From Syncephalis plumigaleata (lineage: Eukaryota; Zoopagomycota; Zoopagomycetes; Zoopagales; Piptocephalidaceae), in contig JAIXMF010000016.1 of the NCBI GenBank assembly GCA_025201365.1, positions 248,001-312,000 on the forward strand: a DNA stretch of 64,000 bases, written 5' to 3'. Below the pieces are notes generated by a model. That model searched no databases. It had not been told where the DNA came from and saw only the letters and a list, made by a program, of their open reading frames with translations. Below, in pieces: positions 13,408 through 54,666 of this stretch (its first letter is position 1; every line of letters starts with the position of its first letter). Made by a program: the position numbers and the translations under genes.

Positions 13408-15143
13408 GCGTCATTTATTCACCGCATATATGCGCGCACGCATATTGATTGATAAATAACGATAGCGCATACGATGAAATGGCGAATCGAAAAAGTAAAT
13501 GTATGTTTGATACATATACTAATTGAAGCAACGAGGATGATGGTAGTGATACATGGGTGACGGTGTACGCTGGTAGACGAATGTCGTGCGTAGCAATTGA
13601 ATATGACAAGTAGCAAGATGTCAGGTTCAACAGGAATCTCGTGCTTATTACAAAGATGTCGGTTAGTAAGGTAGTACACCAGTCCTAGCATCAATAATGG
13701 TCATGGTGTGCAAGTCGTGTTAGCCTACGAGACAAGTCTAGTAAGTCCAGTATTGCCATGTAGAATATTACTCCTCAAATAACAAGCGTTGCATAGGCTG
13801 ACTACAAGATTGACAGGAATAGGGAAAGCACATATCTATTGAGAAATGGTGAGTTCACTGGAAACTAAAGCGTGAATATACTCTATTTTGGTGAATGGAC
13901 ATACGCATACACTCTCGTCCATTACTTTCTATCGCTTTATTCGTCCTCTGATCACACATACACTACCACAACTCATGCTTTCCTCTTACTCCACCTTCGT
14001 TTACAGTCATATACAGGCTGCGCTTAGTTGCAAGCGTATACTACTTGTCGTTGTGTTGTTCGCGGTCGGGCGTCTTATTCCCGTCTAGTCTGCCGCTTTG
14101 CCAATGACTACTTGTCGATTATGTTGATTGTATGTCGCGTACTCGTATTTTGTATCGTTACTCGTCGGCAGCCTCACTCCATCTGTATACTCTGCCGTAA
14201 GCACACTTTGCTCTTCACGCTGCGTAGTAATTGGTTCTTTATTCGTTGTCGATCAACGTGGCATATACTCCCACTGGGTCTTTCATACTGGTCTATCCTC
14301 TATTCAGTTCTCTCTTTCTCGCTCCCTTGTCTACTTGCTTGCGACACTCCCTTGCCCTCACTCGTGTATTTCTATTATTTCATGCCATGTCCTTTATTCA
14401 CGTCATTTGGTTGCTGTGTTGTACCACTTTATTCGTGTTGACTTGCTGATCTTTGCTTGTAGTATGTGGGACACGTACGCATACGTAACACTCGCGCTAT
14501 GCATTAGGCACCACACTTGTTTGCCAGCATACAACGTCTCCACTCGCTGCTTTGCACTACTTACTCGTGCTTTATACATATATGCAAGTACGCGGTACTC
14601 GTGTTAATTACTAGCCAGTGCTGTTTGTTCATCCAATTGCGACATGTATACGTAACAAACACTACACCTTCTACTCGTGTGTTGTGAAAATACGCGTACA
14701 TACATAATGTCCGCGCTAACTACTACCCATTACGTCGCTTAGCACTTTGTATTTGTAGTGGTACTGTCTGACACTGTATTGCATATTGTATATGTGCCAG
14801 GAAATCCTATATGATGGCTATATCTTTATTTGCATAGTATATATCAATAGCTAACATGGCACTAATAGAGGATAATAACGGCATTAGTACATCCATTCAT
14901 TGATCATTAGCATGGTATTACAGATTTGTTTATTTGTTTATTTGTTTGTATTCTATAAGCATATGTGCTCATTCGCTCTATTCACTCCTACTGCTATCCA
15001 TACTACTTGTCTCTCTGTTTCTATTCTCATTCAGCCAATAAACACCACATCAACTTCACACATATCGCTGTATTCTCTACACTCTATTGAACATACTTTG
15101 CTTTCAATCAATACAACTAGCTACTACTACTACTACCACTGCT
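13408..15143 (+). repeat. Left arm of a 1.74 kb near-identical inverted repeat
   Basis: This block reads as the reverse complement of 27051-28794. Identity starts at GCGTCATTTATT and ends at CTACCACTGCT; sequence outside both edges differs. Differences I noticed are single-base substitutions and one-base indels (for example an extra C in the right arm opposite 14172). Frames inside it (such as 14128-14607 and 13419-13694) are broken or shifted between the arms and have no recognisable domain, so I treat the arms as non-coding. The arms enclose about 12 kb holding microexon gene A. Confidence 0.9.
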
Positions 15144-16661: not shown

Positions 16662-18404
16662 ATGAAGTTCTCTACCGTTCTCGCTATTGCCGTCGCCGTT
16701 GTCGCTCTCACCAGTCTGGTCGCCGTTGAAGCTAGTCCCGTCCTGGAACGTCGTGGTATGTCTGACTGTGACCCTATCAATTGATGTACTAATCGTAGTC
16801 TATTGTTTCATTGTCCACCGATGATTACCGATAGCTCGTAAGTTCGTGTAAACTAAATGGTTGTTTGCCACGTTAATCACATTGCTATGTTTATTCTACA
16901 TATTAATTTATTAGCTTAAGGCCGTAAGCTATCCTATTAACCATAGCAAGTACTATGCTAACCACATTATAATGTTTATTTTACCTATTAATTTGTTAGC
17001 AAATCCTGGTAAGCTATTCTATTGACCATAGCAAGTACTATGCTAATCGTAACATAAATCAATATCATATGTGATACCATTTCAAGAGGAAGTAAGTCAA
17101 TATTACTGATTGCAATGAATGATGCACTGACTACATTATGGCACATAACCTACGTATGTTCCTGTATGATAGGAGGTAAGTTACCATTCTGATTGTAATC
17201 CATGCGATACTAACTACGATATGACACATGATCCTTGCATGTTCCTGTCTGACAGTTTGTAAGTTGATGTTTTTGATCGTAATGAATGAATGAGTACTAA
17301 TCACAGCATGGCATACGATCCACGTATGTTCTTGTGTTATAGAACGTAAGTTGGTGTTCTGACCGTAATACACGATGTACTAACAATGAAACGACATACA
17401 ATTAACATATGTTTTTGTATGATAGAAAGTAAGTTAACATTACTATTGTAATGTATGTATGGGCTAATTATAATATATATCTTCGTGTACAATAGTCTGT
17501 AAGTTATTGTTCTGATCGTAATGAATGGATGTACTAATTACACTATGGCACACGATTAACATATGTTCTCGTATTATAGCGCGTAAGTTATTACTCTAGT
17601 TGTAACCTATGTCATACTAATCCCACTATGGTACATAATTTATATATTTTTGCATACGATAGCACGTAAGTCATCATTCCAATGGTAATGTGTGGATGTA
17701 CTAATCACAATACGGCATGCAATTCATGTCTGCTTGTCTATAACAGGATGTAAGTGATCATTTTGACTGCAACGTATAAGATACTGACTACCATATGACA
17801 CTCAATTTATACGCTTCTACATAATAGCCTGTAAGTAATCATTTTGACTGCAACGTATAAGATACTGACTACGATATGACACTCAATTTATACGCTTCTA
17901 CATAATAGCCTGTAAGTGATCATTTTGACGGCAATGAATGAGTACTAAATACAATGTGACATGTGATTACACATGTTTCTGTATGATAGATTGTAAGTTA
18001 TTATTCTAATTGTAATGGATGAGGTACTGACTACGATATGACACACGATTTACATATGTTTTTGTATGATAGAACGTAAGTAATCATTCTAACTACAATG
18101 AATCAATGTCCTAACCGTAGTATGGCACATGATCCACATACATTCTTGTATGGTAGACCGTAAGTTACCATTTTGCTTGTAATATATGCTTGTTTTAATC
18201 ACGCTATGACGTATGATCCACGTATGTTGTTGTATGATAGCATGTAAGTTACCATCCTGACCACAATGAATGAGGTACTAACTACGATATGACACACGAT
18301 CTACGCATGTTCTTGTATGCTAGACTGTAAGTAATTATTCCAGTCGTCCTCTACGATATATTAATCACAATACAATACACGTTATTGAATGATAGGAAGA
18401 TTAA
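16662..18404 (+). CDS. Microexon gene A: secreted peptide built from one-codon exons
   Basis: Exon 1 (16662-16755) encodes a signal peptide ending ASPVLERR, with a dibasic site, and leaves one base over. Then come CTC (16835-16837), GCC (16921-16923, or nine bases from 16915), a 9-nt exon (17000-17008) and a 5-nt exon (17087-17091) that brings the frame to phase 0. Fifteen 3-nt exons follow, from GAG at 17173 to ACT at 18324. A 12-nt exon (18396-18407) carries the TAA stop. Each triplet sits between a ...TAG-type acceptor and GTAAGT, with a TACTAAC-like branch point in the ~80-nt intron. The joined frame is open: 55 residues, the tail after ERR being ARPNPEEEFNKSRHDP then PINTHTED. With GCC as the exon the frame is open; the 9-nt version would bring in TAA. 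Function unknown; probably secreted. It is the smallest member of the family and lacks cysteine. Confidence 0.75.
17092..18395 (+). repeat. Tandem array of ~82 bp intron-plus-microexon units (gene A)
   Basis: Successive GTAAGT donors are about 82 bp apart. Units are recognisably homologous, with a consensus running GTAAGTTA..TTCTGA.TGTAAT, then TACTAA.., then ..ATATGACACA.GATC, then CATGTT.TTGTATGATAG, then three variable bases. Two neighbouring units ending at 17830 and 17911 are nearly identical and carry the same triplet CCT, which looks like a recent single-unit duplication. Confidence 0.9.
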
Positions 18405-18459
18405 GCAGTAAGTAATAATCCATAATAATTATACCCATACTAATCCATTATGATTACAG

Positions 18460-27050: not shown

Positions 27051-28794
27051 AGCAGTGGTAGTAGTAGTAGTAGCTAGTTGTATTGATTGAAAGCAAAGTA
27101 TGTTCAATAGAGTGTAGAGAATACAGCGATATGTGTGAAGTTGATGTGGTGTTTATTGGCTGAATGAGAATAGAAACAGAGAGACAAGTAGTATGGATAG
27201 CAGTAGGAGTGAATAGAGCGAATGAGCACATATGCTTATAGAATACAAACAAATAAACAAATAAACAAATCTGTAATACCATGCTAATGATCAATGAATG
27301 GATGTACTAATGCCGTTATTATCCTCTATTAGTGCCATGTTAGCTATTGATATATACTATGCAAATAAAGATATAGCCATCATATAGGATTTCCTTGGCA
27401 CATATACAATATGCAATACAGTGTCAGACAGTACCACTACAAATACAAAGTGCTAAGCGACGTAATGGGTAGTAGTTAGCGCGGACATTATGTATGTACG
27501 CGTATTTTCACAACACACGAGTAGAAGGTGTAGTGTTTGTTACGTATACATGTCGCAATTGGATGAACAAACAGCACTGGCTAGTAATTAACACGAGTAC
27601 CGCGTACTTGCATATATGTATAAAGCACGAGTAAGTAGTGCAAAGCAGCGAGTGGAGACGTTGTATGCTGGCAAACAAGTGTGGTGCCTAATGCATAGCG
27701 CGAGTGTTACGTATGCGTACGTGTCCCCACATACTACAAGCAAAGATCAGCAAGTCAACACGAATAAAGTGGTACAACACAGCAACCAAATGACGTGAAT
27801 AAAGGACATGGCATGAAATAATAGAAATACACGAGTGAGGGCAAGGGAGTGTCGCAAGCAAGTAGACAAGGGAGCGAGAAAGAGAGAACTGAATAGAGGA
27901 TAGACCAGTATGAAAGACCCAGTGGGAGTATATGCCACGTTGATCGACAACGAATAAAGAACCAATTACTACGCAGCGTGAAGAGCAAAGTGTGCTTACG
28001 GCAGAGTATACAGATGGGAGTGAGGCTGCCGACGAGTAACGATACAAAATACGAGTACGCGACATACAATCAACATAATCGACAAGTAGTCATTGGCAAA
28101 GCGGCAGACTAGACGGGAATAAGACGCCCGACCGCGAACAACACAACGACAAGTAGTATACGCTTGCAACTAAGCGCAGCCTGTATATGACTGTAAACGA
28201 AGGTGGAGTAAGAGGGAAAGCATGAGTTGTGGTAGTGTATGTGTGATCAGAGGACGAATAAAGCGATAGAAAGTAATGGACGAGAGTGTATGCGTATGTC
28301 CATTCACCAAAATAGAGTATATTCACGCTTTAGTTTCCAGTGAACTCACCATTTCTCAATAGATATGTGCTTTCCCTATTCCTGTCAATCTTGTAGTCAG
28401 CCTATGCAACCGCTTGTTATTTGAGGAGTAATATTCTACATGGCAATACTGGACTTACTAGACTTGTCTCGTAGGCTAACACGACTTGCACACCATGACC
28501 ATTATTGATGCTAGGACTGGTGTACTACCTTACTAACCGACATCTTTGTAATAAGCACGAGATTCCTGTTGAACCTGACATCTTGCTACTTGTCATATTC
28601 AATTGCTACGCACGACATTCGTCTACCAGCGTACACCGTCACCCATGTATCACTACCATCATCCTCGTTGCTTCAATTAGTATATCGTATCAAACATACA
28701 TTTACTTTTTCGATTCGCCATTTCATCGTATGCGCTATCGTTATTTATCAATCAATATGCGTGCGTGCATATATGCGGTAAATAAATGACGCAA
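27051..28794 (-). repeat. Right arm of the 1.74 kb inverted repeat
   Basis: Reverse complement of 13408-15143, almost identical, about 1744 bases. The outer flank beyond 28794 (AAATTAATGTAAAG) is unrelated to the flank left of 13408, so the repeat ends sharply. I saw no flanking target-site duplication and no transposase, integrase or tyrosine recombinase frame in the 12 kb between the arms. Confidence 0.9.
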
Positions 28795-39444: not shown

Positions 39445-40860
39445 CTATTAATTTGACGATGATGCCGATGCCGATGATGATGATAATGATCAAGGAACAA
39501 GGAACAAGCTAACGACTATAAACTAGCGAGCGAGTAACTCGGTAGAGAGCGAAAGAGACGGGTAAAATCGATGGATTAAAAATCGATAAGAGAAATTCCT
39601 GTAAACGTTTACAGCGCGTCGTCTTTAATAGATTGGCGACCCGTCTATGTGGATGTGTATCAATGTATATTTATATGAATAGTAGAGGGCGTGAGTGTGT
39701 ATGTGTGCATGCACGTACGTATTAATCTCTAATGATGAACACAAACAGGCAGTATCAGTTGCCAATGGATGAGCGATATAAGATAATTATTACACATGTA
39801 AACGAAATCATATAACCGAGTGTGTAACAACGCGCGTACCTTGACAACATCCACAATCAATTCAATTCGGTAGGAGAGAAATGGGAAATAGATATTATAA
39901 AGAAAAAGAGTAAACGAATTATTATTACGCACACACACACACGTACACACGCATGCACATGCACACACATAGGCGTACATAAAACGAGAGATGATTGGAA
40001 ATAATCAACGGCGTGATTTCATGACGGCCAAGTCGGCAACCAACGAGCTTTCTGTTGCTGAGGTCTGCGTAGTCCACCAGGTAGTACGCGTTGAGTGGCG
40101 CGACATTCACGCCAAATGTTGAAAGCGTACAAGCCTTTACCGCCGATAATAACAACAACAACAACAGTAGTAGTAGTAGCAGTAGTAACGATAGCCTATA
40201 TATCTAGTTCGCTATTTGTCTTCCCGAGTAATAGCAACCGGAAAAATGCTGAAAACTAGCTAGTAGCTTATCTAGTAGCGTTCACTAATTTATGGCGATA
40301 AACACCACCAAAGCTGCTTTCATAAATAGAGTGAATGTTAGGGCGATTATCATGATAATCGTCTACCGCACTGATGTTTGCTATTGCTATGCTATCGAAT
40401 AATGTAAATAGACGGTCGTGTTTTCTATTTCATGCTAGAATCGTAAATAGAGGGGTACATTCTTTCTTCTAACAGTGCTACTATTCCACACGCTATTACT
40501 GATCCCTTTAGCTGTTTATATTTAGTAAACTATTGCTCCCCCCTTTTGTTTTCTTACTCCTAGTGTTGCATACAACAATTGCTTGCTGAAAGCTGTACAA
40601 GGTACACGTGTACTAGACAGAATAGATAGCGCATACCCTCTAAACAATGCATAGTAATGAATGAACGCGTTATTCCGCTTGCTAAGGCATAGTCAACGTT
40701 TATTATGACAATATTACCGTAGTAAATTACCATGTTTACCAGAAATGGTTTGTAAACAATAAATAGGATCATCCTGACAAGGCATTATCAAGCACATGCT
40801 ACAGGTATACTATGTACAAAGTTAATACAATTGCCATTTCTAACATCGATTAGTGTAATG
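39445..40860. other. 5' part of the b561 gene (unresolved) and intergenic DNA
   Basis: About 40020-40200 is more GC-rich than its surroundings and stays open on the minus strand in two frames (one beginning after a poly-leucine stretch, one with GLYAFNIWRECRA), so it may be the first exon of the b561-type gene. The rest includes CA/GT and AAC/AGT microsatellites and no supported gene. Confidence 0.4.
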
Positions 40861-40876
40861 GTCAGAATAGGACATA

Positions 40877-41033
40877 TTTATTCAATAAATGATTGAATGA
40901 TCTTGTAGATATACTTGTTGTTGTTGTACCAAGGAATAATGACTTGAATAGTATGGACACTAAAGGGTCTTGCACCAATACATTCTTGACTTGAATATCT
41001 ATAATATCTACTTGATGATGTCCTTGTCTTGTT
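40877..41033 (-). other. Conserved terminal exon of microexon gene B (mostly 3' UTR)
   Basis: Begins after a TACTAATCC branch point and GATTACAG acceptor, beyond the stop codon. Nearly identical to 18460-18613. Ends in AATAAA (plus-strand TTTATT at 40877-40882). The 60-residue open frame through it is not reached by the predicted protein. Confidence 0.7.
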
Positions 41034-41088
41034 CTGTAATCATAATGGATTAGTATGGCTATAATCATTGTGGATTATTACTTACTGC

Positions 41089-44075
41089 TTATTCTTCCTA
41101 TCATTCAATAACGTGTATTGTATTGTGATTAGCATACTGTGGATGAAGATTGGAATGGTGACTTACGGCCTATCATACACAAGCATACGTAAATCATGTG
41201 TCAGATCGTAGTCAGTACCACATAAGTTACAGCCAGAATGGTAACTTACAGCCTAGTATACACAAGCGTATATGGATCATGTGCCGTATTAATATCAATA
41301 CATCCATACGTTATCATCGGGAATAATAACTTACGCACTGTTATCCATAAATGCATGGAAATCATGAGTTATATTATCATTAGTACATCTATTCATTATA
41401 GCCAGAATGATAACTTACAACCTGTTATACGGAAACATACGTGGATTGTGTGCCGATACTGTGGTTAGTACGCCATACATTACGATTGGAATATCAACTT
41501 ACAGTCTATCATACAGGGCCATAAGGAAATCATGTGCCATACTATCATTAGTACCTCATAGTTTACAATCAAAACGGTAACTTACGCTCTATCATTAGGA
41601 AATCGTGTGCCATACCATAATTAGCGCATTCATTGATTGCAGTCAAAATGGTAACTTACTCTCTATTATACACGGACATATGTTAATCATGTGCCATAGC
41701 GTGATTAGTACTCTATTCATTACGGTCAGAATAATGACTTACGGCCTAACATACAGGAACATACGTGGACCATGTGTCATATCGTGGTTAGTACTCATTC
41801 ATTACAATCTGAACGGCAACTTACGTTCTATCGTACAAAAACATACGTGGGTCATGTACCACATTAGAATTAGTACCCCATTCATTCATTACAGCCAGAA
41901 TGATAACTTACATGCTATCATACAGGAACATACATAGATCATGTGCCATATTATAATCAGTACTTGTTCATTACAATCAGGTGGTAACTTACGCCCTATC
42001 ATACGCAAGTATACGTAGATCATGTGCCATTTTTTAGTCAGTAACACGTCCGTTACAACCAGAATGATCACTTACTTCCTATCATAAGAATATCATGTGT
42101 CATATTGTGATTAGTGCCTCATTCATTACGGTCAGAATGATGACTTACCATCTGTTACACGAAAACAAATATGGATTGTGAGACACATCATGGTCAATAC
42201 TTCATAGAATACAATCAAAATGATAACTTACGATCTATCATACAGGAGCAGATATGGATAATGAGCCACGCTGATATTAGTACATCATTCATTATGATCA
42301 AAATGATTACTTACTTTCTATCATACATAAACATAAGTGGATCATGTGTGATATCATTGTTAGTACATCCATTCATTACGATCGTAATGGTAACCTACAC
42401 ACTGAGATAGGCAGATACACGTATGGATCGTATGTCACATCATCATTAGTACAGCATAGTTTATAAATGGAATGATAACTTACACACTGTTATACCAGGA
42501 TATACGTATGGATCATGTGTCATATCGTAATTATTAGTACATTGTACATTGGCTTAGAATGATGACTTACTTTCTATCATACAGAAACATATAGATCGTG
42601 TGCCATAGCGTGATTAGTACATTCATTCATTACTGTCAGATTAATTACTTACATTCTATCGTTTAGGAATATAGACGAAACAAGTGTCATATCATGATTA
42701 TTATCTCATTCATTACGGTCAGAATGATAACTTACACGCTATCATACACGAGCATAGATGGATCATGTGTCATAGTGTGGTTAGTACGCCATACATTACG
42801 ATTGGAATGATGACTTACAAACTATCATACAAAATACGTGTGATCGTATGCCATATTAGAATTAGTGTACCATAGATTGTAACCGAAATATTAACTTACC
42901 TCCTAGCATACAGAAACATACGTGGATTGTGTGCCATACCGTAGTTAGTACGTCATTTATTGCCATCAGAATGATAACTTACAGGCTGTTTATGCACAAA
43001 TATAAATAAAGCGTGTGCAATATTGCAATTAGTACCTCATATCTTACAATCAGAATGGTAACTTACCATCTATCGTACATGAACATATGTGGATAATGAG
43101 CCACGTTGATATTAGTACAGCAGGTATGATGATCACAATGATTACTTACGCGCTATCATACGAGAACGTAGGTGGATCATGTGCCATAGCATGATTAGTA
43201 CTCCATTCATTGCAGCCAGAATAATGACTTACGACCTATCGTATACAAGCATACATGAACCATGTATCATAACGTTATTAGTACCTCGTTCATTACGGTC
43301 AGAATGATAACCTACAAACTATCGTACAAAACCATACGTGAATCATGCGCCATACTATTGTTAGTACATTTATTCATTACAGCCAAAATAATGACTTACT
43401 CCCTATCACACAGCAGCATACGTGGATCGTGTGACACATTGTGGTTAGTATCTCATTCAGTACGGTCTGGATAATGACTTACGTCCTAGTATACGTAAAT
43501 ATTTGCGAATTATATGACATATCATAATTAATACCTCATACATTACAATCGTAATGGTAACTTACTTCCTATTATACAGGAACAGAGATGGATCATGTGC
43601 CATATCACAGTTAGTATGTCATTTATTGCTGTCAGAATGGTAACCTACGCACTGTGATAGACAAGTATATGGATTGTGTGACAAATTGTGGTTAGTATTC
43701 CATTCATTATGATCGAAATGATAACTTACAGGTACTTGCAAATGACATCACACATGATTTTGATTTATATACAGTTAGCACGATCCTTGCTATGGCCAAT
43801 AGAGTAGCTTACCTTGTACAACTAACAAATTTATAGGAAGAGTTAACATAATAGGGTGATTAACATATTGAAACAATCATTTAATATACATGAACTTACG
43901 AGCTATCGGTAATCATCGGTGGACAATGAAACAATAGACTACGATTAGTACATCAATTGATAGGGTCACGGCCAGACATACCACGACGTTCCAAGGCGGG
44001 ACTAGCTTCGACGGCGACCAGACTGGTGAGAGCGACAACGGCGACGGCAATAGCGATAACAGCAGAGAACTTCAT
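41089..44075 (-). CDS. Microexon gene B: secreted four-cysteine peptide from one-codon exons
   Basis: Exon 1 (43982-44075) encodes a signal peptide like that of gene A, ending ASPALERR. Then CTC (43900-43902), a 9-nt exon (43813-43821), a 5-nt exon (43730-43734) that shifts the frame to phase 0, and 31 three-nt exons from TGC (43649-43651) to GCC (41167-41169). A 12-nt exon (41086-41097) holds GAA GAA TAA. The joined frame has no stop: 70 residues. After ERR it reads ALVQVP, then CEDGFVRMPEFRNKCC, then KIMEGHNARSTVCAAEE. Cysteines 38, 52, 53 and 66 form a C-x13-CC-x12-C pattern typical of small disulphide-bonded secreted peptides. RR before the variable part may be a Kex2-type processing site. 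Introns share one consensus with those of gene A. Function unknown; an effector, toxin-like or signalling peptide is possible. Confidence 0.8.
41098..43729 (-). repeat. Tandem array of ~83 bp intron-plus-microexon units (gene B)
   Basis: On the plus strand each unit shows (A/G)A(C)CTTAC-NNN-CTATCATACA..., the reverse complement of TGTATGATAG-NNN-GTAAGTT. From the first to the last triplet there are 30 steps averaging about 82.7 bp. Branch points read TACTAA(C/T) or close variants (plus-strand ATTAGTA). A few donors read GTAGGTT instead of GTAAGTT. Confidence 0.9.
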
Positions 44076-45151: not shown

Positions 45152-45300
45152 TTTATTCAATAAATGATTGAATGATCTTGTAGATATACTTGTTGTAGTA
45201 CCAAGGATAATGACTTGAATGACATGGACACTAAAGGGTCTTGCACCAATACATTCTTGACTTGAATACCTATAATATCTACTTGATTGCTTGACTTATT
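45152..45300 (-). other. Terminal exon of microexon gene C: stop codon plus conserved 3' UTR
   Basis: After the acceptor CAACCAG the exon begins AATAAGTC. With the carried-over C this reads CAA TAA, so translation ends at 45296-45298. The rest, from AATCAAGTAGATATTATAGG on, matches the terminal exons of A and B and ends in AATAAA (plus TTTATT at 45152-45157). Confidence 0.75.
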
Positions 45301-48300
45301 CTGGTTGTATTACGTTAGCATACGCATAATCCTGATGGTAAACATTTACTTACGGACTGCTCATATTGAGGCATAACAATCAGCATTATTATTGCAATTA
45401 ATACGTTGAATGATAGAATGAGTGTATAGACTTACAGCCTGATAGTATCAAGTTATATAATACATGCATCACTAGTGATTAGTGCACAGCAAGTGGCATT
45501 GGTAGTGATAATCTACCTCCTGGTACTATAACAATAGCCGTATGACATATTAATTTACGATTAATGTGCGAAATAAAACGATAGAACACATCGACTTACT
45601 GCCTATTAACGAAAGGGTGATTCGAGCCAAATTATTAGATGCGATTAGTGCATAGCGTCACTTCATTATGAATGATAAGGCTACCTCCTATTGACGACGT
45701 GTCATACTATTAGTACGTAAATCATTGACTCGATACTTGCTTAGCTTACTTTCTAATAGTAGGAAATCAGATGCATCACATATCATCGAATCATGAGTGC
45801 GTGGACAATGTAATTAGCAAATACGCTTACCCTCTATCAATACGAGGATAAGGAGAGGAAGAGAGAGATTAGCTATAGTATGATAATTGACGTATAAACC
45901 TACTTCCTATTGATTGATACGTGGTCATACGGTTGAGATAACACATCATGCTTAGTGTATACGTTGATGTATTGGTCTTGTTAGCTTACCCTCTATTGTT
46001 GTGCGTTTACACGAATTAAACGATATTTCAGGATTAGTACACGAGGCAACGCATTAGAGCACTAGCTTACCGTCTATTAATATTATTAATGCAAATCGAA
46101 ATAGCAATGTGATTAGTGTGTGTGTGTGACGATAGAATGATTAGACGGGGTATCCTACATTCTATGGTGACATGATTGGGGGCATTAAATGTATGTTTAA
46201 ACGTTAGCTATGGAGATAAACTGATTAAAGCGACAACTTACCTTCTACTCGTGCAAGTCATCCCGTAATTTGCAGGCCAGCATATGATTAGCGTGCAGAA
46301 TGAATGAACAAGCGTATTAACTTACTGACTATTATTGTGAGAAGAGGTATAGTAAATAAACAACGCGATTAGTACGTGTGATAATAGAGCAAGCATATCA
46401 ACTTACTCTCTGCCGTGACAAGATCGTGTAGATTGATTGTAGTACAATAATTAGCGTATAGAATAAACGAGTTCAAAAAACTATCGGCTTACTCCCTTTT
46501 AATACGGAACAACAGGTTAGATATTAAATGATAGGTGGCATGCTCACTTACTCTCTATTAGCATGATGTCACGTCAATTGAAACCGATGGAATGGTCAGT
46601 AGATGAATGGGAGATTGAAATATCCATGCTTACGAACTATTACGTAAGTTATTATTATCATTAGTATACACGATAGCAAAAGTAGAAAGAAAGAAAGAAA
46701 GAAAGAAAGAAGGGGCAACTTACTAGCTATTAGCATAAATCGATACAAGTTAGATTTATATTACAATTAGCGGATCGTATACGCCATAGGTAATTTATGA
46801 ATTTACCTCCTATAATGTCGAGTTTTACGTAGCATCAATCATGTATGTATTGTTAGCGAGTCAAGCAATGCAATTGACAGTTATACTTACTTGCTATTAA
46901 TTGGAATTTATCATGTTAATCAGAGCATTACGGTTAAATATATAAAACGGTATATATAAAAACCTACCAACTATTTAAACGATCATATCAATTTAGTGGT
47001 AGCACGTTATTATCGTTAGCGTATTCAATGGGGTAAATGATACTAGTAAAAGCTTACCGCCTATCGTTATGACGCCATACGGATTGATTGTCGCATTCAT
47101 CGTTAGTTTACACGTATAGTCTTGGTATTAGCATAGCGGCTTACTCCCTAGAAAACATATGGTTATACTACGATTAGCACATGACACGGCGTAATCAAGC
47201 TGGCAACTTACTCACTACCGGTATGGCATTATACAAATTAAGCATTAGATCATCGTTAGTGTATAGAATAATAATACTCGTGTGTTAACTTACTCTCTAC
47301 AAGGACAAAGCCATACGATCGAATTGCCATAATGTACTTGATTAGTATGAGGAATAGTATGAGCAGTGTATTGATTGCTTACTGGCTGTTAGCGTGTGTA
47401 TGGAAACATATAAACATTATATTATTATTATTAGACTACTATGATGATTGATCGTGTAATCCATTTGTTAATTTACCGGCTATTAGTAGATTGTCATACA
47501 GTTCGACAGGATGTATTATTAATCATATGAGTAATAGGAATGCTATGTCAACTTGCCAGCTATTATTACAAATTAATAAACGTATGTAGTAGTGTCAATG
47601 ATGCATCAACTTACTTTCTGTTAATGTCGAGTAAGATTAGTTGCATATCATATTGCAATTAATATGTGATAAGTAGCGTGATTCCCATGTTAACTTACTT
47701 CCTAATAACGTGTGATTATTAAGAGGACGTATACACGATAAGGTGAGTATACTAAAATTGCGCAATCGTTATGCTTTGACTTACCAACTATTATCGATAT
47801 AATGATGATACAAATGAATTACTGTAATCAGCGTACATTGAATCAATAAACGATGTTGTTAACTTACGACCTATTGGTCAATGGATTACATGTAATCGAG
47901 TGCGCATTAGCATTAAAATCAACGGAAATCATAGTAGTTGCTTACCGGCTGTTAACATTAAATAAATACATGGAATAGTATGATACGATTAGTAGGCTAT
48001 ACATCATCATCATACATGCATTGACTTACTATCTAAACACATGAATTCATGTTGATTACACGTGGCAGTATCATAGTCAATACGCTAAGCATCTTTGCAC
48101 AAGTAGTTCACTTACGAACTATTATTAATGTCACACAAAATGTTGCGATTAGCTTGTTAAATGATTGTGATGTCACGTATAGACTTACCATCTATTCTCG
48201 TAGAGCGAGTTGATTGTCCATTACACTGTGATTAGTACAAGAAGAAGAATATGACTGACGTGTGCATTTACCAGCTGCGAGCATGAATGACGTGAAAAGG

Positions 48301-51300
48301 GCACAACATTGTAATTAGTGAATTGACCGATGATGTCGGCAATAGATTAGCTGCTTACACACTATTGTACAATGAAAGACTAGATTAGCTTAATTGTAAT
48401 GTGATCAAATCAATCACTTACTTCCTGGTATTATTTATACGATTATACCAATTGTATACGCCATATGATGGTTAGTACACGAGGTATTGCCATTGGGGCA
48501 TTAACTTACCGGCTATTAATACGAATCATATAAATAGACATTATATCAATATTAACAAATCAATAGATGTAAACAAGTTGCTCACTTACGCTCTATCATC
48601 GTAGGAATACGAGTAATTGGTGTAGGTGTATGTTAGCACGATTAGTTGACTAGTTGCTAACATCGGAATGCAGTCTTACGATCTATATTGGTTGTAGTAT
48701 ACGGGTGTTAAGCATTGCATTACGATTAGAATGATAGATATTGCCATAGGCATGTATACTTACTAACTATCGACATGAAATGATATAGGGAATGCAAGAA
48801 TTATGTCATGATTAATGGATATTGAATGAAATGGTCAGCGTAACTGCTTACTTCCTATTAGCGTAAATTACAATTAGTTAGCGTAATGAATGAGTCACAC
48901 AGTCTATGCCATACCTCCTATTAGCATTGAACGATACACGTAGCGTGTAGTGTTATCGTCAACGTATTATCTATGACAAGTGTAGTGTGTATTTACCTAC
49001 TACAAGCATTACATGTCAGTAGATCATTAGTAAACTATAATGGCAAACTAAGCAGTAGATTAACTTACATTCTATTAGTAAGTGATTGCAACGGACAGGC
49101 GTTGTATTAGTATTAGTATAGTGGATTAGCGTGACACTTGTCCTGATGACTTACGGCCTATTAATATAGAAAAGAAAGAGAGAGAAAATAACGTAGGGAT
49201 TACGTGACGTATTATGATTAGCCAATTGTATAAAGTAATCAGCATACCAACTTACCATCTATCATTATAGAGTGGTTTGTACGATATGAGAAAAGACAAT
49301 GATTAACACACTAGCTATTATTATTATTATTACTATCATATCAACCTACTGACTATTGACAGACATAGAATGGGAGCAAAGACAATACAGTATAGAATGG
49401 TTAGTACGGGAGATAGCGTAGTTACTTTGGCAACTTACTAGCTATAAAGAGCGAGTCGTATTCATCGTAAGGTACACATGCCATGATTAGTCAATGAAAG
49501 TTTAACAGGCTATTTGAACCTACAGTCTATTAATGTAGGATTACACAGGAAATGATTACATAGTGATGAGCGAGTTGTTCAGTAAGATCGGTATACTGGC
49601 TTACCAACTACGAATGCATGTGCACATAGATTGGATGGAGTAGTACGATTAGTATAGAGCACAATGGAATGGGAGTATCTCTTCAACTCACGAGCTATTA
49701 GGGTGTAATAGAGTTATGCGTATAGCGGTTAGCGTGTGTGTACCAATATGTTCAATGTACAAGCTTACTATCTATTGGTATACATCGTAGATCGATCGAC
49801 ACATTTCAATTAGTATGTCAAATGGAAGTAATCGGTATGTGTGCTTTCTTACTCGCTATTCGATTATGTGATACGTGATCCGCATTTATGATTAGCAATT
49901 GACATCGTGTAATCGTCGTGCTTACTCACCGGCTAGTAGAATAAAATCATGCGGATTAAACAGCAGCAACATCTCGTTAGCCGAATATTCGGTAGTTATG
50001 ATTACCACGATGATGATTGCTTACTCTCTATCGGTGTAGATTAAATGAACCGGAATGGAGCATTAGAAGCGGTATACGAGGTCCATGACATGCTTAGTCA
50101 CTTACTCACTGTTATTTAATGGCAATGAAGATGTTAAGGTAAGCTCAGTATGTGTGTGTATGTGCGGATATATCAATTAATATTGTCAACTTACTAACTG
50201 TTTATACAAAAAAAAGGGTAAGCACAGGAAGCACGGCGTATAAAAGTTAATGGACAGCATGATAGAATGATTGCACTCAGCTTACGTCCTGTTCATTATT
50301 ACGTCGTGATTAGCGTATGAAATGATACGGTTAACGTCGTGACCTACTTTCTATTATAGTACAGCCATGTCAAGGGTAATTCAGCGGTACGTTATTGTTA
50401 ATGATGATTCAAGCCGTGTAATAATCCTATTAGCTTACGGTCTATTAAATGAAATGGTACAAATCAGAGAACACAATATCGTTAGTCAACTGGCTATTAT
50501 TATTATAGACAGCGTATTAACCTACATTCTATTGGTTCATGGCCATAAATGATAGGTATTATGTTGTTGTCAATGGTTAGATAAGCCATAGTTCCATATG
50601 CGTATCTACGTATTAACACTTACGTGCTAAGTATGCGACATCAGTGTATTGATGATCGTCCTATTATTAGCATGTACACTAATGCTGCTATAATGACAAC
50701 ACACACACCTCCTAATTAAAGGAGAACCCACACGTCAAGTGATACATTGCAATTAATACGAAAGAAATCGATGCAGTTAGCGTGCTTGCTTACTGACTAT
50801 TAGTGCACGTTTACACAAATGAAATAACATCAAAGATTGTCATTAGTATGCAGTGGGGAAGTCTTATTAACATTGAGCTTACGTTCTATCGGCGTGAAAT
50901 TGTAGAAATGACACGATACGTTGGTATTTAGCGTATGAATTATCGAATAATTGACCAGGTAACTTCTTACCGTCTATTGATGTGGGATTTACGTAAATCG
51001 AGAATGATAGGAAGGGGAATTAACAAAGGGAATAGATGGATTATTGTACAAGTGTAACAACTTACTAACTATCAATGTCAGTCATCATGCAATGTATACA
51101 CGTATACCAATGCCGTGATTAGTAAATGGAATGGAGTAAGACGCGTATCGTTTACTCACGATCTATTCAAATGACAAAATAAAATAAAGTGATGATTAGG
51201 GTAAAATGCATGCAGGATAACGAGACATCTACTTACTGACTATCAGTATAGAATCATTCAATTGATCATTACGGTATGATTAGGACTATGGAAAGAAGGG

Positions 51301-51505
51301 ATACAATCAGCACGCTAACTTGCCTCTTTCTGTTCAGGTAACAATTTATATATGTATTAGAATGTATGTTTGATAACGTTTTTTCTTATTGTAACATACG
51401 ACTACCACCACGACCACGTCCAGTCGCAGTTTCCGCATCAACTAGTGATACACCAGCTACAGCGACGAAAGCAGCGGCAAATACGGTAACGATGGAAACC
51501 TTCAT
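45296..51505 (-). CDS. Microexon gene C: 110-residue secreted protein from 72 three-nt exons
   Basis: Exon 1 (51400-51505) encodes signal peptide and linker (MKVSIVTVFAAAFVAVAGVS start, GRGRGGS end) and leaves one base. A 6-nt exon (51324-51329, GC donor) follows, then 72 exons of exactly three bases, from TCA (51237-51239) to TCC (45354-45356), and the terminal exon with TAA. Every intron is phase 1. Joined, the frame has no stop and encodes 75 residues after the linker. It looks like real protein: residues 39-53 are NLNELRAQYQRLMKT, and residues 82-98 are TAAKMRSVARAIQRKIK, both amphipathic helices, with a Gly/Asn-rich middle and a GRG ending like that of the leader exon. There is no cysteine. 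Total coding length is 333 bases in 6.2 kb with 74 introns. Triplets at 50106-50108, 48997-48999 and 47212-47214 read TGA, TAG and TGA but are split between codons. Function unknown; secreted. Confidence 0.85.
45357..51323 (-). repeat. Array of ~83 bp intron-plus-microexon units (gene C), diverged
   Basis: Seventy-one steps from the first to the last triplet average about 82.9 bp. Each unit keeps AG-NNN-GTAAG borders and usually a CTAAT branch point (plus-strand ATTAG), but the intron bodies share little sequence, unlike those of A and B. Unusual donors: GCAAGT after the 6-nt exon and after CTG (47557-47559), GTGAGT at several units, and GTGTGT after GAG (50709-50711). One intron carries an AAAG microsatellite (46685-46712). 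Confidence 0.9.
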
Positions 51506-52271: not shown

Positions 52272-53159
52272 CTATGGGCTAGGTACAACACATTTCTGTA
52301 GCAGTAAGGTGATATATTTCGCAGCACGAACAGCAGCACGCGCTATAAACTTGGGAATCTGCTCCTTATTCGTGCTGTAGTAATTGCCGCTAAAATCGCC
52401 GCTTCGCTTTAACCGTTCATAGGTGGGCCAAAACGAGTCGCAATTGTATTTACTAATTTCATTGACCCACGGGACGACACACGCCTCTGGATTCTGTGGA
52501 TTGGATGCGAAACACATATTCCACTGGTTGACGTAGAAGCGATACTCGCCCTCCTTGATCTGTTTGGCCAGCTGTTTAACGTACATGTTGACATCCTCCT
52601 CAATCACCTCGTTAGGCATAGCGGTATCCCATATGTAGTGGAGGGGCAATGACTTTCCCTTCCATTGGTGCTTTATCTCCGTGCCACCACGATTATTGGC
52701 CGAGACATGAAGTGGCTGGTGAAGGTCGCCCAAGAAATGCATGATAAACCTGATTGCCTGCTTGTTCGCTATGTTTCCTAGGTCGCAAGTGAACCCGCTA
52801 GTGTATTTCTTCAGTCCGGTGACGATACATTTGTCACCTAGGCAATGTTGCTGTTCATCGTATAGTTTACACTTGTTGGGCAAGCTATCCACCGATACGT
52901 AATGGAAACCCTTTGTGTATCCGGGAGGAAATTGGCTAGGCGGTATATTGTCGGCCCAGGCTGCAGCATTTCCATAATCATCCACCGTACCATCTGCAAG
53001 TGCGAGGAGTTTATTCATGTATAGTTTAGTGTTGTCGGGAAGTAATTGCTGGATGAGTCGACCGATAACAACGTGTGCCTTGTCGCCCCATGCATTCGTA
53101 AATGGCGCTGTAGTGGCGACAAACAAAGTTGCGACGGCAGTGTATGTGGAGATTCTCAT
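52272..53159 (-). CDS. Secreted S1/P1-type nuclease
   Basis: A single-exon frame of 295 residues, the usual length of the family. A signal peptide ends at NA before W24, so the mature protein would begin with the zinc-binding tryptophan (WGDKAHVVIG, with H29). Further zinc ligands are visible: AAWADNI, GFHYVS, FIMHFLGDLHQPLHVS and HQWKGKSLPLHYIWD. These are the conserved Trp, His and Asp residues that hold the three zinc ions. The enzyme cleaves single-stranded DNA and RNA and often has 3'-nucleotidase activity; in fungi it is secreted for nutrient scavenging or host interaction. It lies just upstream of microexon gene C on the same strand, with about 0.75 kb between. No intron is needed. Confidence 0.93.
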   Translation of the reverse strand: MRISTYTAVATLFVATTAPFTNAWGDKAHVVIGRLIQQLLPDNTKLYMNKLLALADGTVDDYGNAAAWADNIPPSQFPPGYTKGFHYVSVDSLPNKCKLYDEQQHCLGDKCIVTGLKKYTSGFTCDLGNIANKQAIRFIMHFLGDLHQPLHVSANNRGGTEIKHQWKGKSLPLHYIWDTAMPNEVIEEDVNMYVKQLAKQIKEGEYRFYVNQWNMCFASNPQNPEACVVPWVNEISKYNCDSFWPTYERLKRSGDFSGNYYSTNKEQIPKFIARAAVRAAKYITLLLQKCVVPSP

Positions 53160-54666
53160 GATAACGACGAATGATGTTGATGCTGATGCTAAACGATCGT
53201 CTAAGAAGTGTTGTTTAGGATAATGCTGTCAGGAAAAGTAGTGTCAATGGTGGTGGCGGTGTTGTTGTTCAAGAAATCGATTCACGTAACAACAACCGTA
53301 AAATGGAGGAATGATTCAATGGAGGACTAGCTCGGTATTGGAATAATAGTTAGTATATTGCGGATGGCTGATCCATACGCTTTGGCTTTTATAGTTATGA
53401 GTGAGACATATATCTATACTATTCTCGTAAACATCAAGATTTACTTAGTCAAACTTGATACTTGGTTTGAAATGAGCGTGCGACATTCGAACGTAGTTTG
53501 CTAGTGAAACTATCGAACATGAGCGCATTACGGTTTATTCATCTTTCTAACTTGAGAAGGGATTATTCCTGTTTCTCTCCCCTTTATCGTTGCACGCTTC
53601 CCTTACATTCATTGCATTCACATAGCAATTGCCTATAGATTGATTGCGATCATTGCTCTACCAGTATAGTCATGATACAGCAAGATAGATCAAATATAGA
53701 AATATTGCCACATGGCATGTTTGACTGATGAAACAATCTAGATAAATCCACTCCAAATTACCGGTTAATGATGCAGCCTTTGAGTGCATCTTTACCTGCA
53801 GTATAAGTGAATACTACGCAGTACAAATATCAAATAAAATAGTATGGAATTCATTGCTGCTGCTTGTTTAACAGCTGTCATAACAACAACTACTAGCTAG
53901 CTAGCTAGAGCAAGCCACATGCAAGTAATACAAAAGCACGAAACAAAGAATCGTCTATGAAATCTTCTAGGAGTATAATCTTTGAAGCATCTTACTTTGA
54001 AAGGGAAATATCATGACTACAAGGATCTGTTGGCTAAATGTATATATGCCCCTGTCTTTTCTTTTCTTTGTCAGTGATCTTGACAAGACATTCTTCGAGA
54101 ATACTATAGTTTCATGTCTTCTAACAAATGTTCGACGATACACACGCGAGTTAATGAACAGATGCATGTCATCTATAATATGTATAATGGATCATACTGC
54201 TCTGTATTACCATTAATACGGCGGTAATTATATTATGGTCACCCAGCAACCGTGTTAATAAGCGGATATTGGATGAGGAAACGCATAGCTACAAGTTACC
54301 AACGATGAATGAGTGCAGGGATAGTACGAATAGTATTATCGTACAGTCACAGTCTAGGTTTGTTTGTCACGCTACTCTTGTTCACTTGCCTTTGATAGAT
54401 CCATATCCGTTTTACACGCGTGCAACGCCGCACCTATAGAATACCGTATGTCCTGTTCTATACCACCACCACCATCTGTAGATCCCATTCATACCTATTT
54501 TTAGAAATAATTCTGAACACACCGACACCTCTTCTTGGCAGTTTGATTCGGCTTTAGCATCATAGTACATTGGTATATTAGTCAGTATCACTAGTATCTA
54601 TACACAACTCTAATTCAACCACCTATTATCCCACTCTCCGTAGTCGCACTAGTATTATTTATCGCT
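53160..54666. other. Intergenic, no gene seen
   Basis: Contains the nuclease promoter side and AT-rich DNA with a CTAG run near 53893-53909. No frame has a domain or signal peptide. Confidence 0.5.

Follow-up and report, generated by a model that had tools for sequence, protein, structure and literature searches.

Probable one-codon exons in a family of putative secreted-peptide genes of the mycoparasite Syncephalis plumigaleata

We analyzed a 64,000-nt stretch (the window) of contig JAIXMF010000016.1 from Syncephalis plumigaleata, a mycoparasitic fungus of the Zoopagales, and found that it contains three genes with arrays of micro-exons, namely, gene A on the plus strand and genes B and C on the minus strand. 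As judged from sequence, gene C and its sisters are very probably real spliceosomal protein-coding genes in which nearly every residue behind the signal peptide is encoded by its own 3-nt exon. Gene C extends from 51505 to 45296 on the minus strand. Its exon 1 (51400-51505, 106 nt) begins with ATG, encodes a hydrophobic, signal-like N terminus (as read from the sequence), and ends in phase 1 at the donor GTATGT. The micro-exon array (45354-51329) comprises 73 exons, all in phase 1, of which the first has 6 nt and the other 72 have 3 nt each; the terminal exon, which starts at 45300 (45296-45300), carries the stop codon TAA at 45298-45296. The 3' untranslated region (3'UTR; 45152-45295) contains AATAAA at 45157 and resembles the 3'UTRs of the sister genes. 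In a frame-blind parse, the 74 introns measured 53 to 98 nt (mean, 79.4 nt), and donors other than GTAAG, for example GTAGGT, GTAAAT, GTGAGT, or GCAAGT, were present at 20 of the 72 3-nt exons. The joined frame had 110 codons and no stop in the phase of exon 1, with 3 and 4 stops in the other two phases. The parser reproduced the model put forward in a first-pass annotation of this DNA, namely, a signal exon, 72 triplets, 74 introns, 110 residues, and a TAA in the terminal exon. That observation holds, but gene C is not a singleton; it belongs to a large family, of which the window contains at least three members. Support for the notion of one codon per exon comes from the sister genes, the threading of two public protein models, the conservation of splice sites, and a shared cysteine order that emerges only after splicing.

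The strict motif AG-NNN-GTAAG occurred 53 times between exon 1 and the terminal exon of gene C, whereas 1000 first-order Markov shuffles of that stretch contained 0.24 copies on average and 3 at most. A count made without any trained model, of AG-N(k)-GT[AG]AG on the minus strand in 45296-51505, returned 57 sites at k = 3 and 0 to 7 sites at the other values of k from 0 to 12. The gene C parse presented here took no account of the reading frame and used a prior, derived from the sister genes, that strongly favored 3-nt exons; when the prior was weakened, the parser set a few exons wrongly and disrupted the frame. A frame devoid of stops was obtained in 0.96% of base shuffles and in 6.5% of shuffles of the triplet order. 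By itself, the open frame of gene C is thus only moderately surprising, and the case becomes compelling because of the family evidence.

At the genome level, the tandem pattern GTAAG-N60-86-TAGNNNGTAAG was detected 1,923 times (1036 + 887), compared with 160 times (87 + 73) in a control read backwards. Searches with the DNA of gene B exon 1 and of its 3'UTR exon (40860-41033, minus strand) yielded 190 and 227 candidates, respectively; 40 were scored in each case, and all 40 matched. In a protein search of the genome, 148 of the 150 scored matches had E values of ≤0.001, with 147 to the signal part of the sister genes; these approximately 147 signal matches include intronless members and copies on small contigs and are not a count of array genes. 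A 3' untranslated module with AATAAA is common to gene C and the sister genes, and introns of different family genes resemble one another. The introns had the features of spliceosomal introns, namely, GT(GC)-AG ends, a branch-like CTAAY motif (158 of 220 introns), and conserved splice sites.

Exon length was assessed with a Viterbi parser that had a uniform prior on lengths of 1 to 40 nt and ignored the reading frame, applied to 38 loci, some of which are close copies. The parser chose 3 nt for 584 of the 674 internal exons, the next most common lengths being 9, 5, 6, and 2 nt, and the lengths of 642 exons were divisible by 3. Exon 1 of the sister genes, which is broken in two copies (L012 and L015), usually has 94 nt and ends in phase 1; an exon of 5 nt, sometimes 2 nt, then leads into phase 0, in which the triplets coincide with codons, and the last coding exon has the form NNN-stop-GCR and precedes a 3'UTR intron. 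A single phase for all genes was ruled out, given this shift in the sisters and the constant phase 1 of gene C. With gene C left out, the triplets read as codons contained 1 stop in 420, and the other two offsets contained 2 in 386 and 45 in 386, with 10.5 expected from position composition. In terminal exons of the form NNN-GCR bordering on GTARG, next to the 3'UTR motif, the stop was TAA in 24 and TGA in 1 of 25 cases, a conservation explained in part by shared descent because these exons are close copies. A framed parse of the 27 complete loci showed that the phase of exon 1 was cheapest in 19; its cost stayed below 1 bit in 19 loci, and that of the remaining two phases did so in 4 and 7. 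The framed parse outperformed the blind one in L022, L043, and L065 because weaker donors were admitted. On visual inspection, the public protein models P0009, P0013, and P0014 seem to extend into the 3'UTR, but its interpretation as a coding tail was rejected, as the preceding stop was kept in 25 of 25 cases.

Two other public models follow the triplets. P0005 (BDF22DRAFT_685685, NCBI, 92 aa) threads exactly on G000:C362 with 42 exons, 39 of which have 3 nt, and contains 40 of the 45 micro-exons of the blind parse at its locus. This threading required introns of up to 165 nt, by which some parsed exons were skipped, and failed when the maximum was set to 150 nt. Of the 56 family starts tried with P0005, the 55 others all failed. 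P0006 (BDF22DRAFT_685769) threads exactly on another locus of G000:C362 with 43 exons, 40 of them of 3 nt, when weak donors are allowed, and failed under stricter settings. The threading of P0014 on gene A failed, reaching at most 40 of 128 residues with a score of -64; this partial run indicates that very loose threading proceeds some way by chance, and the corresponding scores of P0005 and P0006 were 655 and 710.

Divergence between copies was determined for 11 paralogue pairs drawn from 40 genes, with each gene used once and the pairs chosen by closeness; pairs with L047 were excluded for that reason. It amounted to 3.0% at 5' splice sites (27/897), 5.3% at 3' splice sites (24/452), 11.0% in intron bodies (1165/10574), and 20.0% in micro-exons (121/605), whereas exon 1, compared in ten pairs, differed by 4.2% (39/940). 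Of 71 gaps, 68 began in introns. These figures indicate that splice sites and the signal are held, while the codons change about twice as fast as the introns. We infer the kind of selection from these rates; hypermutation of the triplets is an alternative. Dispersed units whose flanks had diverged by about 8%, a value somewhat lowered by the selection of pairs for flank likeness, differed at 35 to 46% of codon positions (26 pairs). The same codon was present in 10 of 50 unit pairs whose flanks were alike but whose neighbors differed, compared with 1.6 expected and a maximum of 7 in 500 permutations, as whole-unit copying would give; the unit comparisons left out L019, L021, and the window. Gaps of at least 30 nt (n = 41, from 91 pairs that are not independent of one another) included 25 of 77 to 87 nt, corresponding to one unit, nine of 57 to 58 nt, and one of 248 nt, corresponding to about three units.

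The sister genes encode a signal and a short pro-part, followed by a mature peptide of approximately 13 to 50 residues. Behind the signal or pro-part, 20 of 21 sister precursors have Arg-Arg, the exception being L010 with Arg-His; a second Arg-Arg was present only in L018, L022, and, near the C terminus, L016. The gene C product has no Arg-Arg behind its signal. From these sequences, the products are probably secreted, and the sister precursors are probably cleaved after Arg-Arg. All five peptides with at least four cysteines show the order C-CC-C with differing loop lengths, and none of 20,000 shuffles reached five, a result that overstates the strength of the pattern because the five peptides may share ancestry and the pattern had been noticed before testing. 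The cysteines of this pattern are spread over many single-codon exons, so that it is visible only once the exons are spliced in silico. The test covered 21 of the 27 framed peptides: L012 and L015 (broken exon 1), L030, L033, and L034 (another phase cheaper or tied), and L038 (a near copy of L014) were dropped, and L016 and gene A were retained though another phase is cheaper. C..CC was also present in an earlier partial parse of L033. No Pfam hit was obtained above the curated cut-off, and PDB sequence searches with the gene C protein and the gene B peptide retrieved no relative. We consider it slightly more probable than the contrary that the peptides act on host fungi or serve as secreted signals in the mycoparasite.

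A number of observations weigh against reading these loci as genes of one-codon exons. The gene structures are deduced here from genomic DNA and public protein models, and the exon boundaries of P0005 and P0006 stem from our own threading, not from database coordinates. Both models leave out 5 parsed micro-exons each, 7 of the 10 with non-GTAAG donors, and the end of P0005 differs from the parse and looks like a misread terminal exon; they may therefore be ab initio models. P0008, the public model that covers gene C, departs from the triplets and threads as three exons (106, 91, and 1 nt), which suggests that annotation deals poorly with such genes. The exon lengths chosen under the uniform prior are not wholly independent evidence because the splice weights were trained on strict AG-NNN-GTAAG sites; the model-free count is independent. 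The pooled frame-blind parse left the frame open in no more than 23 of the 38 loci, and just 9 of the 19 full loci had stops solely in the last exon. Overall, the phase of exon 1 contained 32 stops, against 18 and 49 for the two remaining phases. This mixed result can be put down in part to misparsing around the 5-nt exon. Furthermore, triplet offset 1 was nearly as free of stops as the codon offset, and the framed test favored exon lengths seen previously, including 5 and 2 nt. The frame of gene A requires a 5-nt exon that costs 8 bits relative to the frame-blind parse, another phase being preferred, and P0014, on visual inspection, appears to take its last triplets in a different phase before continuing into the 3'UTR. 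Finally, the paralogue pairs differ among themselves: codons are as conserved as introns or more so in L023/L025 and L036/L039 and much less conserved in L031/L035 and L024/L030.

In gene B, which is encoded on the minus strand, exon 1 (43982-44075, 94 nt) covers the signal peptide and a short pro-part that ends with Arg-Arg, and terminates in phase 1. The micro-exons (41086-43902) have 3, 9, and 5 nt, the last of these taking phase 1 to phase 0, followed by 31 exons of 3 nt and a last coding exon of 12 nt with TAA (41097-41086); the product has 70 residues and the C-CC-C order. Gene A, on the plus strand, has a 94-nt signal exon (16662-16755) and mostly 3-nt micro-exons (16835-18407), the last coding exon being GAAGATTAAGCA. 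The arrays of both sisters are tandem repeats with a unit of 81 to 87 nt. Directly upstream of gene C lies a gene for an S1/P1 nuclease (52275-53228, minus strand; Pfam PF02265, E value of 8e-43). Elsewhere in the window, two open reading frames at 14128-14607 (plus strand) and 27688-28089 (minus strand) have near-identical translations over a long stretch, indicative of a dispersed or inverted repeat. The window gave no match in Rfam and tRNA scans.

Other family loci differ in architecture. An intronless member (L067, G000:C340:439257-439685) has the same signal peptide and an unbroken long frame that corresponds to P0029 (143 aa), and partial relatives occur in long open frames at C178 (L068, G000:C178:6673-6876), C46, and C281; intronless members and members with one-codon exons thus seem to coexist in one family. 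P0023 and other metagenome proteins had been considered as possible spliced complementary DNA, an idea that was given up in view of the intronless member in this genome. L021 (minus strand, from position 663) has an exon 1 of 253 nt that encodes three identical peptides between Arg-Arg sites, similar to a repeat precursor of the KEX2 type, followed by micro-exons. A second giant, L013 (G000:C1:1409500-1419000, minus strand), has approximately 70 micro-exons over 6 kb, including exons of 21 and 27 nt, the latter nearly repeated; its exon 1 was not found. Within the 1.5 kb upstream of exon 1 at 29 of the loci L023 to L052, comparison of 406 pairs gave 337 alignments that end at the ATG, and some pairs were alike over the whole 1.5 kb examined, with 86 to 97% identity, which suggests that genes were copied together with long upstream DNA. 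Some loci are arranged as divergent pairs separated by about 1 kb (C179:64767 and 65907). P0021, P0022, P0026, and P0027 (JGI) and P0025 (ENA) have a similar signal exon and read on into the apparent first intron (GTSGHGHIN or GMSGHGRIN), so that the family is probably wider than S. plumigaleata. Protein searches, which could reach only relatives sharing short exact words, retrieved no named relative outside S. plumigaleata and none in aphids, and a search of viral contigs revealed no relative.

Schistosome micro-exon genes (MEGs) are described as having exons of 3 to 81 bp and long introns of up to 5 kbp (PMC10526429). Like the present genes, whose products are putatively secreted, they form secreted, variable parasite proteins from many tiny exons, and the exons of the present genes fall within their length range; MEGs differ in the length of their introns and in their varied exon lengths, whereas the introns here have about 80 nt (53 to 98 nt in gene C) and most exons hold one codon. 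MEGs are set apart by description, and no sequence relation is expected between a fungus and a flatworm. Aphid bicycle genes have on average approximately 17 small exons in a single phase, and the megacycle gene has more than 100 micro-exons (PMC9168663). Bicycle genes resemble the present family in that they contain numerous small internal exons, evolve fast, and have a putative role as effectors; the internal exons of gene C also keep to one phase and start at codon position 2 like nearly all bicycle exons, whereas the sister genes turn to phase 0. The more than 100 micro-exons of the megacycle gene encode about 2000 residues, that is, many residues per exon, and occur in an insect, not a fungus. 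KEX2-processed repeat proteins (KEPs) are secreted fungal precursors with KEX2 sites (PMC6339444); the sister genes resemble them as putatively secreted precursors with a dibasic Arg-Arg before the peptide and differ from them by the absence of a repeated core in the 21 precursors inspected, three repeats being present only in L021, where the identical cores lie in the long exon 1. Single micro-exons of 1 and 3 nt have been documented in APC11, CYP621A, and homothorax (PMC4674806, PMC12940212, and PMC7392893) and show that spliceosomes handle such sizes, but they are lone exons in ordinary genes, whereas dozens follow in succession here. The first-pass annotation had considered the gene C structure to be new; this is true of whole gene bodies built from 3-nt exons, but not of the 3-nt exons themselves, which are already known from schistosome MEGs. 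In the open PMC literature, with subscription journals and preprints outside this coverage, we found no paper on Syncephalis micro-exons among those listed; PMC7466969, which mentions Syncephalis and introns, concerns Basidiobolus. The related species Syncephalis pseudoplumigaleata is treated as an obligate mycoparasite, and a title cited in the same source calls Syncephalis a genus of ubiquitous mycoparasites (PMC6784888).

If gene C and its sisters are genes of one-codon exons, these exons would be separated by introns of about 80 nt whose donors are strong and GTAAGT-like and whose acceptors are AG. Introns this short and uniform may be read by intron definition, in which case a 3-nt exon need not be bridged, and every AG-NNN-GTAAGT would act as a recursive-type splice site that leaves one codon behind. 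Since the micro-exons are nearly all multiples of 3, the gain, loss, or skipping of a unit would alter one residue and keep the frame; unit-sized gaps were seen, and exon skipping may occur as well. The similar introns that flank each codon could serve as recombination tracts by which codon units are copied, duplicated, and deleted. The measured divergence suggests that codons are replaced faster than introns drift, as would be expected under diversifying selection, and the products would be secreted, cleaved at Arg-Arg in the sister genes, and directed against host fungi. We tentatively extend this scheme, at somewhat less than even probability, to codon cassettes: in approximately a hundred secreted-peptide genes, the intron-wrapped codon would be the unit of inheritance, which is copied, inserted, lost, or retyped through intron recombination and possibly subject to optional splicing.

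That the triplets are real units of which each transcript includes only some, so that each gene gives rise to a mixture of peptides, we regard as rather unlikely. Any 3-nt exon could be skipped without a frame shift, and the non-GTAAG donors in gene C, as well as at most of the exons omitted by P0005 and P0006, are compatible with combinatorial splicing of this kind. However, the omissions in the two models may be prediction errors, and both the conservation of codons in several paralogue pairs and the C-CC-C order, which requires particular exons, speak for a defined product. It is less probable still that the introns arose as introners, mobile elements inserted between the codons of an older intronless gene. 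The existence of the intronless P0029 with the same signal and the resemblance between introns of different genes would be in accordance with such an origin, whereas the excess of shared codons in units with alike flanks and different neighbors and the unit-sized gaps fit the copying of units; no intronless counterpart with the same mature sequence turned up, although no systematic search was made for one. A decaying noncoding tandem repeat with chance splice-like motifs is hardly tenable and was rejected, since, despite the tandem units of genes A and B and the broken exon 1 of some copies, 5' splice sites are conserved relative to the intron body (P = 1e-17, with sites treated as independent), stops are avoided, the terminal stop is kept, the exon 1 phase is usually the cheapest, the cysteine order is shared, and gene C, whose units are too diverged to be called as a tandem array, still allows the parser to place a splice pair for each of its 74 introns.

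If the reading of one codon per exon is true, the micro-exon gene would reach its extreme in the S. plumigaleata family, with a protein written codon by codon, each in its own exon. Such a family would test how small exons can be and how many of them the spliceosome can process in succession, and would allow intron definition and recursive splicing to be studied in a natural experiment. Besides flatworms and aphids, a fungus would then be among the organisms in which parasitism accompanies families of micro-exon genes. In addition, the family suggests a route to hypervariable secreted peptides through whole-codon units, by which single residues may be added, dropped, or swapped while the protein remains intact. 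Should the codon-cassette system be real, the parasite could search peptide space without frameshifts.

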